Shown here piece after piece: positions 6,852-9,796 of a stretch of DNA of 64,000 nt (its first letter is position 1; each line of letters begins with the position of its first letter). The translations under genes and the position numbers were made by a program. Source of the stretch: Methylobacterium platani (GTDB lineage Bacteria; Pseudomonadota; Alphaproteobacteria; Rhizobiales; Beijerinckiaceae); contig NZ_LWHQ01000002.1 of the NCBI RefSeq assembly GCF_001653715.1, positions 1 to 64,000 on the forward strand, in the 5' to 3' direction. The notes under the pieces were generated by a model that saw only the letters and a list, made by a program, of their open reading frames with translations, searched no databases and had not been told where the DNA came from.

Positions 6852-8573
6852 GTGGCGTTCAGGAATCGGCTTCGGTTCGAGCACCAGCTCGCCGCGCTGG
6901 TCGGCCTGCTCTGCCTCGCCCTGGTGGGGGCGACGGTGGGCGGCGCCGTGTGGCTCGAACGCCGGAGCGCCCTCCGGCTGGCCGAGGCGCGCCTCGCCCG
7001 CCTCGCCGGCGGCATGGCCGAGAGCCTCGACACCACCCTGCGCGAGCGCTTCCGCGAGATCCAGGTCGTCGCCGGCCTCGACCCCCTGCGCGAGCGCTGG
7101 GGGGCCGACGCGACGACGATCCGCGGCGTCCTCACGGCCATGCGCACCACGGCGCCGGACTATGCCTGGCTCGGCTTCGTCGCGCCGGACGGGCGGGTGC
7201 GGGTCGGCACGCAGGGCATGCTCGAGGGCCTGGCGATGAGCGGGCGGGCCTGGTTCGAGACCGGGCTGACGAGGCCCAATGTCGGCGACGTGCACGAGGC
7301 GGCGCTGCTGAACGGCCTCCTCGTGCGGTCCGAGCCCGAGCCGCTGCGCCTCGTCGACCTCGCGGTGCCGGTGCGCGATGCCGGCGGCCGCGTCATCGGG
7401 GTGCTCGGCGGCCACCTGAGCTGGGACTGGGCCATCCGGGCGCGCCGCCGCCTCCTCGACGAGGGCCGGCCCGGCACCGACCTGTGGGTGCTCGACCGGC
7501 AGGGCCGCGTGATCCTGGGGCCGCATCTCGGCACCACGCCGTTCGGGCCGGCGCGCATCGGCGCCATGGTCGAGCAGGGGCGCGGCCGCTTCGCCGCGGT
7601 GATCGGGGACGAGACGGTGCTGGCCGGCTTCGCCTCGGCGGCGACGGGCGAGGGCAGCGGGATCGCGGCCGGCGATCCCGGCCTCGGCTGGATCGTCGTG
7701 GCGGCCCTTCCGGAGGCGCAGGCCCTGGCGCCGGTGCAGCGCTCGGTCCAGGCGCTGCTCGGCCTCGGCGCCGGGATCGCGCTCGTCGGCGTCGCCCTCG
7801 CCTGGGGGCTCGGCCGCCGCGCCGCGGCGCCGCTGCGGCGGATGACGGCGGCCGCGGACCGGTTCGGCCGCGAGGCCGACGCCACGACGCTGCCGCGCCT
7901 CGACGGGGCACGGGAATTCGTCGCGCTCTCGGCGGCCCTGCGCTCGCTGCTGCGCCGGATCGGCGCCGCGGAGCGCGAGCTCAGCGACGCCGCCCTCCGC
8001 TCGACCCGGGCCGCGGCGTTCTACCGGCGCCAGATCGAGGACCTGCGCCAGGTCGCCGGCACCGACGTGCTCACCGGGCTGCGCAACCGCCGCGGCTTCG
8101 CGGCCCCCGCCGAGGACGCCTTCGCGCAGGCGCGCGGCGGCCGCTGCCGGGTCGCGGTGCTCGTCGTCGACATCGACCACTTCAAGCGCGTCAACGACCA
8201 GCACGGGCACGATGCCGGCGACGCGGTGATCCGCCATGTCGGCGCCCTGCTGGCGGACGCCGTGCGCGAGGCCGATACCGTCGCGCGCTTCGGCGGCGAG
8301 GAATTCGTGGTGCTGCTCGTCGGCCTCGGCGCGAGCGAGGCGGTGCAGATCGCCGAGCGCCTCTGCGCCGCCGCGCGGGCGGCGGAGATCGCCCCGGCGG
8401 GCAGCGCCATCCCGGTCACCGTCAGCATAGGCGTCGCGACCGTCGCGCGGTGCGATCCCGACATCCAGGCGGCGATCGCCCGCGCCGACGCGGCGCTCTA
8501 CGAGGCCAAGGCGTGCGGGCGCGACCGGGTCAGCGTTGCGGCCGGGACCGGGGCGGTCGAGCGGGCGGCGTGA
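6852..8573 (+). CDS. membrane diguanylate cyclase with periplasmic Cache-type sensor
   Basis: A 573-residue protein. TM1 is at about residues 13-34, an extracytoplasmic dCache-like sensor region lies at about 35-290, TM2 at about 296-318, then a HAMP-like linker and a C-terminal GGDEF domain. The active-site motif is GGEEF (481-485), and the product-inhibition I-site RxxD (472-475) sits exactly five residues before it. It is predicted to make cyclic-di-GMP from two GTP in response to a periplasmic ligand. The GTG start is chosen because GGAGGGG at 6841-6847 lies just upstream. The 79-residue gene upstream may be in the same transcript. Confidence 0.9.
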   Translation: MAFRNRLRFEHQLAALVGLLCLALVGATVGGAVWLERRSALRLAEARLARLAGGMAESLDTTLRERFREIQVVAGLDPLRERWGADATTIRGVLTAMRTTAPDYAWLGFVAPDGRVRVGTQGMLEGLAMSGRAWFETGLTRPNVGDVHEAALLNGLLVRSEPEPLRLVDLAVPVRDAGGRVIGVLGGHLSWDWAIRARRRLLDEGRPGTDLWVLDRQGRVILGPHLGTTPFGPARIGAMVEQGRGRFAAVIGDETVLAGFASAATGEGSGIAAGDPGLGWIVVAALPEAQALAPVQRSVQALLGLGAGIALVGVALAWGLGRRAAAPLRRMTAAADRFGREADATTLPRLDGAREFVALSAALRSLLRRIGAAERELSDAALRSTRAAAFYRRQIEDLRQVAGTDVLTGLRNRRGFAAPAEDAFAQARGGRCRVAVLVVDIDHFKRVNDQHGHDAGDAVIRHVGALLADAVREADTVARFGGEEFVVLLVGLGASEAVQIAERLCAAARAAEIAPAGSAIPVTVSIGVATVARCDPDIQAAIARADAALYEAKACGRDRVSVAAGTGAVERAA

Positions 8574-8628
8574 GCGGGTCGGACGCGCCGGCCCCGCACC
8601 GTCCGCGGGTCCCGCCGTCACGATGGCA

Positions 8629-8653
8629 GGAACCGAAGGCGCTACGCTCCGTT
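8629..8653 (+). promoter_or_regulatory. sigma-EcfG (general stress) promoter
   Basis: GGAAC at 8629-8633, 16 bases, then CGTT at 8650-8653: an exact match to the general stress response promoter of alphaproteobacteria (GGAAC-N16/17-CGTT). The expected start of transcription is about 40 bases upstream of the microprotein ribosome binding site. The surrounding sequence is unusually AT-rich for this genome. Confidence 0.75.
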
Positions 8654-8693
8654 TATGATCTTACAGAGTATTCATGGAGTTATGGAGGCATCG

Positions 8694-8777
8694 ATGATGA
8701 AAGGTGGGTTGCTGTGGTTGATCGGCATACCGATTCCGATCATCCTGATCCTGTTATTCCTGGGTTACCTGCACTGA
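8694..8777 (+). CDS. single-span membrane microprotein, 27 residues
   Basis: The reading frame begins with two adjacent ATG codons (8694 and 8697) followed by KGGLLWLIGIPIPIILILLF and GYLH, then TGA. GGAGG at 8684-8688 lies 8 bases before the second ATG, so the product is probably 26 residues. Almost all of it is one hydrophobic helix broken by a Pro-Ile-Pro motif. A consensus sigma-EcfG promoter lies upstream and a hairpin followed by TTT lies downstream, giving it a complete stand-alone transcription unit. Similar tiny hydrophobic proteins occur in many proteobacteria, but I cannot name a function. Too short for routine gene callers. Confidence 0.75.
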   Translation: MMKGGLLWLIGIPIPIILILLFLGYLH

Positions 8778-8825
8778 TGGGGGCGATGCGCAGCTTTGCG
8801 CGACTGGCCCATGCGTGAGCGTGCG

Positions 8826-8862
8826 GCGGCTTCCACGCGGCATCCGGCTGCGTGGGGGCCGC
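8826..8862 (+). terminator. probable terminator after the microprotein
   Basis: Stem GCGGC-tt-CCACGC (8826-8838) pairs with GCGTGG-gg-GCCGC (8850-8862) with a two-base internal loop, and is followed by TTTGATT. It isolates the microprotein unit from the SDR gene. Confidence 0.5.
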
Positions 8863-9019
8863 TTTGATTCGGATTGTCGTCCTATCCCGAACGAATCGCC
8901 TTCTTCCCCCTCGACGACCTTCCCGGCGGGCTTGCGCCCCGCCGCCCTGCCTTGGCAGACAGGCATGACGGCCGCGCGGCGGAAGGTCGGCGGCCGGCAA
9001 GAACGGGGAGGAGACGACC

Positions 9020-9796
9020 ATGACCGAGACCCTGGCCGGAAAGGTCGCCTGGGTGACGGGCGCGGGCAGCGGCATCGGCGAGGCGGCGGCCCTGGCCCTC
9101 GCCGGGGCGGGGGCCCGCGTGGTGCTCACCGGGCGCCGGGAGGAGCCGCTGCGCACGCTGGCCGGTCGCATCGCGGCCTCCGGCGGCGAGGCCGCGGTCG
9201 CGCCCGGCGACGTCACCGATGCCGGCCGCATCCAGGGCATCGTCGCGGAGATCGCCGCGCGCTTCGGCCGGCTCGACGTGCTGGTGAGCAATGCCGGCAG
9301 CAACGTGCGCGAGCGGCGCTGGGACGCCCTGTCGCCGGAGGGCGCGCAAGGGGTGATCGAGGCCAACCTGTCGAGCGCCTTCTACGCCTCGCTGGCGGTG
9401 CTGCCGCTGATGCGGGCGCAGGGCGACGGCGTGCTGATCCACACCGCGTCGTGGGCCGGGCGGTACGTCAGCCCGGTGAGCGGCCCGGCCTATACCGCGG
9501 CCAAGCACGCCGTGGTGGCGATGAGCCACAGCATCAACATGGAGGAGTGCGTCAACGGGATCCGCTCGACGGTCCTGTGCCCGGCCGAGGTGGCGACGCC
9601 GATCCTCGACAAGCGCCCGGTGCCGGTGAGCGCCGAGGACCGCGCCCGCATGCTCCAGCCCGACGACATGGCGGCGCTGATCCTGTTCGTGGCGACGCGC
9701 CCGAAGCACGTCTGCCTCAACGAGGTGGTGATCAGCCCGGCGTGGAATCGCGGCTACGTGCCGGATGCCCGCCTGGGATCGCGGCTGGGTGCGTGA
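9020..9796 (+). CDS. short-chain dehydrogenase/reductase (SDR)
   Basis: A classical SDR of 258 residues. Cofactor motif TGAGSGIG is at 13-20, structural NAG at 91-93, and the catalytic Ser144, Tyr158 and Lys162 (YTAAK) are all present. The residue after the second strand is TGRRE, and the Arg pair suggests NADP(H) preference. The ATG follows GGGGAGGAG at a normal distance. The substrate is not predictable; the family reduces or oxidises alcohols and carbonyls. It is separated from the microprotein by a likely terminator and from the convergent 78-residue gene by a strong hairpin. Confidence 0.9.
   Translation: MTETLAGKVAWVTGAGSGIGEAAALALAGAGARVVLTGRREEPLRTLAGRIAASGGEAAVAPGDVTDAGRIQGIVAEIAARFGRLDVLVSNAGSNVRERRWDALSPEGAQGVIEANLSSAFYASLAVLPLMRAQGDGVLIHTASWAGRYVSPVSGPAYTAAKHAVVAMSHSINMEECVNGIRSTVLCPAEVATPILDKRPVPVSAEDRARMLQPDDMAALILFVATRPKHVCLNEVVISPAWNRGYVPDARLGSRLGA

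Follow-up and report, generated by a model that had tools for sequence, protein, structure and literature searches.

The window analysed here is a stretch of 64,000 nucleotides from the 7.02 Mb genome of Methylobacterium platani, and the features of interest all lie on its + strand. A sigma-EcfG type promoter is formed by a -35 element, GGAAC, at 8629..8633, which is also found in all 5 relatives of the window subfamily and agrees with the published consensus, and a -10 element, CGTT, at 8650..8653, whose columns are invariant in a six-sequence alignment; the spacer between the two elements is 16 nt and a further 40 nt separate CGTT from the ATG. A Shine-Dalgarno sequence, GGAGG, follows at 8684..8688, where the GGAGGC columns are again invariant among the six sequences, and then a gene of 27 codons plus stop, at 8694..8777, predicted to encode a single-helix membrane microprotein, MMKGGLLWLIGIPIPIILILLFLGYLH. 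Promoter (GGAAC-N16-CGTT, 8629-8653) and ribosome site (GGAGG, 8684-8688) are read directly where an earlier, sequence-only reading of this DNA had placed them, and the frame of 26-27 codons with one hydrophobic helix that it described is confirmed, at 27 codons counted from 8694. The gene is flanked on the same strand by a diguanylate-cyclase-like frame upstream (6852-8573) and an SDR-like frame downstream (9020-9796), both named by reading of the frame.

Beyond the gene, at 8825..8863, a hairpin with a long stem (fold z -1.96) is followed by TTT, and a consensus terminator scan returned one terminator-like site, at 8845-8861, where 0.2 were expected. The alignment of the six window-subfamily loci breaks down directly 3' of the stop codon, so the hairpin is not conserved and is a possible terminator of the window copy only. 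The complete transcription unit envisaged by the sequence-only reading thus stands as regards the promoter, ribosome site and frame, which are conserved; its hairpin plus TTT is present after the frame, but the relatives diverge after the stop and it is not conserved as a terminator.

In-frame ATG codons are read directly at 8694 and 8697, and the TGA ends at 8777. Since the two Met codons correspond to ATG CTG in two relatives (L013 and L014), 8694 is the likelier start. Two further in-frame ATG codons lie upstream. That at 8655, which would open a 40-aa ORF, is ATG in 3/6 subfamily loci and probably falls at or before the transcript start, being only 2 nt beyond the -10 box; that at 8682 overlaps GGAGG and is ATG in 5/6 of the loci. 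N-terminal extensions from either codon are not general, because L016-L018 have an in-frame stop shortly upstream.

The pattern of substitution argues that this frame is, almost certainly, a real gene under purifying selection. In all 15 pairs within the window subfamily, comprising the window's own copy and five relatives, pS is 0.25-0.61 against a pN of 0.00-0.08, and in a sister subfamily of 16 loci (120 pairs) the pN/pS ratio is 0.115. Conservation in the six-locus alignment forms one block that spans promoter, ribosome site and frame and runs through the stop codon. The sequence-only reading had staked its proposal on conservation of the frame, with a bias towards synonymous change, among relatives, and this is what the pairwise values give. 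A high-GC genome contains many spurious ORFs and this frame is short, and an SDR-similar frame also lies downstream at two further subfamily loci (L010 and L011), so that the frame might have arisen by chance or might encode a leader peptide of the SDR-like gene at 9020; with a pN/pS of ~0.1, divergence that begins right after the stop and neighbours that vary between subfamilies, we regard either as extremely improbable.

The peptide belongs to a family. A six-frame search of 61 genomes gave peptide matches in 47 at E<=10, and the search among relatives that the sequence-only reading had proposed was rewarded in 34 of the 36 other same-genus genomes (E<=2e-4); of the remaining two, G013 has a doubtful match only (E 3.57) and G029 has none by six-frame search. 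For wider searches we used a profile of a 16-peptide alignment (A1), against which the window peptide scores E 1.8e-10, being itself one of the 16 rows, and the window peptide shows the W-x-x-G-x-P core, the uncharged helix and the length of ~25 aa. This profile finds no match in two further same-genus genomes (G348 and G421) and no microprotein in 9/11 same-family genomes of other genera. It matches 183/397 genomes of the order, from 66/141 genera (E<=0.1), 57/385 genomes in a sample of the class (E<=0.001) and 48/349 in a sample of the phylum (E<=1e-4), 14 of these last lying outside the class. Named members among the matches listed include Rhizobium, Bradyrhizobium, Sphingomonas, Roseomonas and Reyranella within the class and Achromobacter, Pigmentiphaga and a Verrucomicrobium contig outside it. 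The distribution of the family is patchy, and three genomes (G025, G026 and G033) each carry three clear copies.

In total 193 genes were recognised, an uneven sample drawn from the relatives, the listed matches of one scan and the class and phylum samples. They specify 155 distinct peptides, and 188/193 have a length of 23-28 residues, which depends on the start rule chosen for the analysis. The core of the family reads W-[LI]-[IL]-G-[IV]-P-x-P and lies in an uncharged helix that follows an N-terminal Lys/Arg; W, G and P are invariant in alignment A1, Pro-x-Pro is kept in 182/193 peptides and a charged residue occurs in the core segment of 1/193. The near-absence of charge from the core, together with Pro-x-Pro, fits a putative membrane helix with a conserved bend. 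Neither the window peptide nor five of its homologues match a Pfam or NCBIfam model over the cut-off, and two homologues gave PEF-CTERM matches below it. Literature searches, with supplements and most subscription papers outside their scope, found no published description of the family, and a text search of the same scope for family peptide strings found none. An RpoE2 transcriptome mentions unannotated ORFs (PMC6180224) and novel SEPs have been reported (PMC10117765), and either set could include a member of the family.

The promoter can be set against two published consensus sequences. Microarrays in M. extorquens AM1 yielded an EcfG consensus of GAAC-N16,17-C/GGTT (PMC4814048) and a looser one, GGAAC-N17-20-GTT, is given for S. 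melonis (PMC6599016); the window promoter, as GAAC-N16-CGTT, satisfies the M. extorquens consensus and is suitably spaced from the start codon. The motif with N15-18 occurs 156 times in the window's genome, compared with 91 occurrences of the reversed pattern, and is therefore common enough that one site alone is weak evidence; it is conservation at a fixed place that constitutes the evidence. The strict motif stands upstream of the peptide in 19/29 relatives' loci (L010-L038), including all 5 window-subfamily relatives, and at 31/71 loci among the matches listed in a contig scan. Across the family, the published motif is present in the 95-nt upstream stretch of 92/192 genes compared with 125/16,298 control windows, which are equal-length stretches from the same loci, and the stricter GGAAC..CGTT in 69/192 compared with 45/16,298; the reversed motif was found upstream of 0/192. 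For these counts each stretch was kept once only, and the total is 192 since one gene among the 193 has <110 nt upstream. A further 27 loci, in which the regular expression recognised no gene or which were skipped, were left out of the promoter count: the NepR loci L069-L071, three loci with no convincing peptide (L063, L065 and L066), a true member missed by the expression (L056), 8/14 non-alphaproteobacterial loci and 12 other alphaproteobacterial loci.

The window's genome has five NepR matches, four of them over the cut-off, and PhyR- and EcfG-like frames, so named by reading, adjoin them and, used as queries, find phyR-ecfG loci elsewhere. The match to the consensus, a genome that encodes EcfG, NepR and PhyR, and the enrichment across the family all bear out the sigma-EcfG promoter proposed by the sequence-only reading, and we consider it very probable that the window gene is driven by EcfG. 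The published motif is nevertheless missing at that place from 100/192 family genes, was found upstream of 0/10 members outside the Alphaproteobacteria and is present in 3/15 genes from alphaproteobacterial genomes with no NepR match, while six Methylobacterium genes have a different element in common, so that EcfG control belongs to many members, the window's included, and not to the whole family.

These six are paralogues ending GVFH/GVFQ (L019, L021, L032, L033, L041 and L043). They are without the EcfG motif and share a pair of elements, one ATCGCTTT-like and one GTGCGTT-like, separated by N10 and placed at one and the same distance, ~90 nt, ahead of the GG of the peptide. The pair was looked for and not seen in L042 and L067, and it is possibly the promoter of another sigma factor. 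Copies ending WFFGVF/WFFNVF (L030, L031, L036 and L040) have kept GGAAC with a drifted -10 element (GGTC, CGTA or GGTA by eye), which suggests that EcfG control of these genes may be weakened or altered.

The family is also associated with the PhyR-NepR-EcfG core. In the class sample NepR is found in 37/57 peptide genomes compared with 29/328 others (37 with both, 20 with the peptide only, 29 with NepR only and 299 with neither; Fisher 1.7e-19, uncorrected for descent). Among the 20 peptide genomes with no NepR match, a PhyR match at E<=1e-10 was found in 8, and in three of these it covers most of the PhyR length. As read off the match lists, about 4.2 kb or less separates the microprotein gene from nepR in 6/37 of the co-occurrence genomes; five of these six regions show PhyR and EcfG by tblastn, unlike the sixth, which is close to the end of a contig. 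The published motif is present in 3/6 of these microprotein genes linked to the general stress response (GSR). At two loci of one genus (L176 and L177) the microprotein gene lies between ecfG and phyR and has its own EcfG-type motif, and in a Beijerinckiaceae MAG (L132) phyR is 2.6 kb from it. Between microprotein and phyR, L177:5174-5393 holds a small lipoprotein-like frame with glycine-rich repeats, as judged by eye.

Such a location would suit a feedback of the kind exerted by MgrB, in which the EcfG-induced peptide would bind membrane HWE/HisKA2 kinases and tune the phosphorylation of PhyR; besides the arrangement at L176 and L177, seven loci have kinase-like frames, read as HWE/HisKA2, no more than 4 kb from the gene. 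However, these nearby kinases differ in architecture and several look soluble by reading, such kinases are common, with 24 HisKA_2 matches in the window's own genome, and the family extends outside the Alphaproteobacteria, where none of the 10 members carries the EcfG motif. On this balance we think kinase feedback unlikely.

Clustering of the neighbouring frames revealed one recurrent family directly after the microprotein, which we refer to as the partner. By tblastn with two of its members, a partner lies near 37/193 microprotein genes. Adjacency on the same strand accounts for 33/193, with the order microprotein-partner in 24 and partner-microprotein in 9; the other four rows are a divergent pair (L119), two microproteins near one partner (L103) and a partner 3 kb off (L131). 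The two at L103, near 3055 and 3207, are different family microproteins standing in tandem after one partner gene. Of 11 named loci with the microprotein-partner order, 10 have a gap of 2-14 nt and the remaining one a gap of 56 nt, and in 4/11 loci checked a TAGGAGG junction runs the microprotein stop codon into the partner's ribosome site. Six of the 10 members outside the Alphaproteobacteria have the partner-microprotein order and Pigmentiphaga the microprotein-partner order, while the remaining three (Achromobacter, Rhodocyclaceae and Verrucomicrobium) have no partner nearby. That the pair is kept though the gene order is swapped speaks for a common function. Among genomes of the class sample, 35/57 with the microprotein have the partner compared with 12/328 others, these co-occurrence counts, like those of adjacency, not being corrected for phylogeny; it adjoins the microprotein in 14/35 (13 on the same strand and 1 divergent, read off the match lists). 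No partner match at E<=1e-10 was found in 22/57 microprotein genomes, and 12 genomes have the partner with no microprotein. The pairing, as it is read from gene order, is new here.

The partner is a membrane protein of ~300 residues (L136:4088-5005, for example) with the motif SPW..GGYxxGRLR..FFRDTAHG and 33 invariant columns in its alignment (A3), and it matches no Pfam or NCBIfam family. A structure model with a mean pLDDT of 73.9 has helices at 24-52, 63-92, 101-148 and 233-305, which may be read as about four stretches that span the membrane and a soluble middle part. Foldseek returned no match to this model at E<=0.001, and a comparison with PDB sequences gave three weak matches only (best E 0.087). 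By VIA-align, too, it matches no solved fold clearly, the best Z of 6.6 lying in the range of common helical arrangements. Proteins like the partner presumably go under the label 'PhnA-like protein', a term absent from the papers that our literature search listed.

Plasmids carry the pair too. In five annotated records, of 62 with a partner match, the partner is labelled 'hypothetical protein' and is preceded by an intact microprotein frame that is missing from all five gene tables, themselves incomplete. A tblastn search of plasmids with the 28-aa peptide gave no match, perhaps owing to the low-complexity filter, and is no evidence of absence since these five records contain the peptide. A gene for a ferritin-like domain follows the microprotein-partner pair on Rhizobium and Shinella plasmids (L247, L249 and L251). 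None of the Methylobacterium loci examined has a partner beside the microprotein and the window copy stands alone. The window's genome has two distant partner homologues (C28 and C51, 29 and 30% identity), and the 500 nt upstream of each contain no EcfG motif; that on C51 is ~6.5 kb from a nepR match.

A short hydrophobic peptide, present in several copies in some genomes, also recalls the toxins of type I systems, and an Ibs- or TisB-like peptide held off by an antisense RNA would share its size. A scan of 8560-9030 for sigma-70-like promoters, the one type it covers, found none on either strand, and 8500-9100 has no Rfam match; what is conserved instead is the stress promoter and, in other genomes, the adjoining partner gene. 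We judge a type I toxin very unlikely.

The sequences establish a gene, the selection upon it, the conservation of its promoter and, in other genera, an operon-like pairing, and the reading that we favour, to which we give slightly better than an even chance, is of an EcfG-induced inner-membrane microprotein acting as a small subunit or modulator of the ~300-residue partner. Under stress, PhyR would free EcfG from NepR and the freed EcfG would transcribe the microprotein gene. The product would insert in the inner membrane as one helix, bent at Pro-x-Pro, and would most likely act on a larger membrane protein, docking into its transmembrane part as a small subunit or modulator. The best candidate for this target is the ~300-residue partner, which forms tight operons with the microprotein in other genera; in the window's genome its action would have to be in trans, through the two distant homologues. 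From EcfG-dependent transcription onwards, through membrane insertion and physical binding to the effect itself, these steps are what we infer from the arrangement of the sequences, and pairing in an operon is not proof of binding. We have given the partner slightly less weight because 3/10 members outside the class are without it and half of the GSR-linked genes are without the motif, and whether the microprotein acts through the partner family seems to us about evenly balanced.

The main rival to this reading, followed by the kinase feedback considered above, dispenses with a partner. Made abundantly under stress, the peptide could itself alter the bilayer, changing its fluidity and lowering the proton-motive force, and so damp metabolism in the manner of YohP, a protein of the same size with a single helix for which changes in the membrane and its potential and protection against stress are reported (PMC12719787). 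The three copies in G025, G026 and G033 and the stand-alone genes of Methylobacterium would suit an effect of dose. The invariant W, G and P of alignment A1, however, represent more constraint than a bulk effect on the bilayer needs, and the two-way pairing with one membrane protein is left unexplained; we see an action on the bilayer as possible but rather doubtful.

Extending the partner reading, we suggest, at somewhat less than even odds, that microprotein and partner may make up an as yet undescribed membrane stress complex of two parts that occurs widely in the Proteobacteria. In the Alphaproteobacteria this complex would have come under the general stress response, in some lineages by a place within the phyR-ecfG locus, and the microprotein would be its regulatory subunit, able to detach and to act in trans as well. 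Single-helix membrane proteins induced by stress are already known, few of them with a known target, and here the adjoining partner gene offers a concrete candidate. With this family, the general stress response of the Alphaproteobacteria would gain a membrane effector. The genes of the family are too short for most annotation, and an EcfG-type promoter beside a short conserved frame could be used for the systematic discovery of such genes.

Three known systems invite comparison. With the targets of sigma-EcfG in the general stress regulon the window gene shares a promoter that fits both GAAC-N16,17-C/GGTT (PMC4814048) and GGAAC-N17-20-GTT (PMC6599016), and members of the family sometimes lie in the phyR-nepR-ecfG locus; in contrast to that regulon, no Pfam or NCBIfam model exists for the family, whose members include genes that do without the EcfG motif. 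YohP of E. coli is a 27-aa membrane protein made in starvation and stationary phase (PMC12719787) and has, like the window microprotein, 27 residues and a single helix, though the two are likened by function alone and the microprotein family differs in its W..G(I/V)PxP core, its often EcfG-type promoter and, in many genera, its adjoining partner. MgrB is a 47-aa feedback inhibitor of PhoQ (PMC2789325, PMC8404706). As with MgrB, the microprotein would be a small membrane protein controlled by the regulon that it may tune. MgrB has a periplasmic part with a cysteine pair, whereas the window microprotein is shorter, lies almost wholly within its helix, with few residues after it, and has no cysteine.
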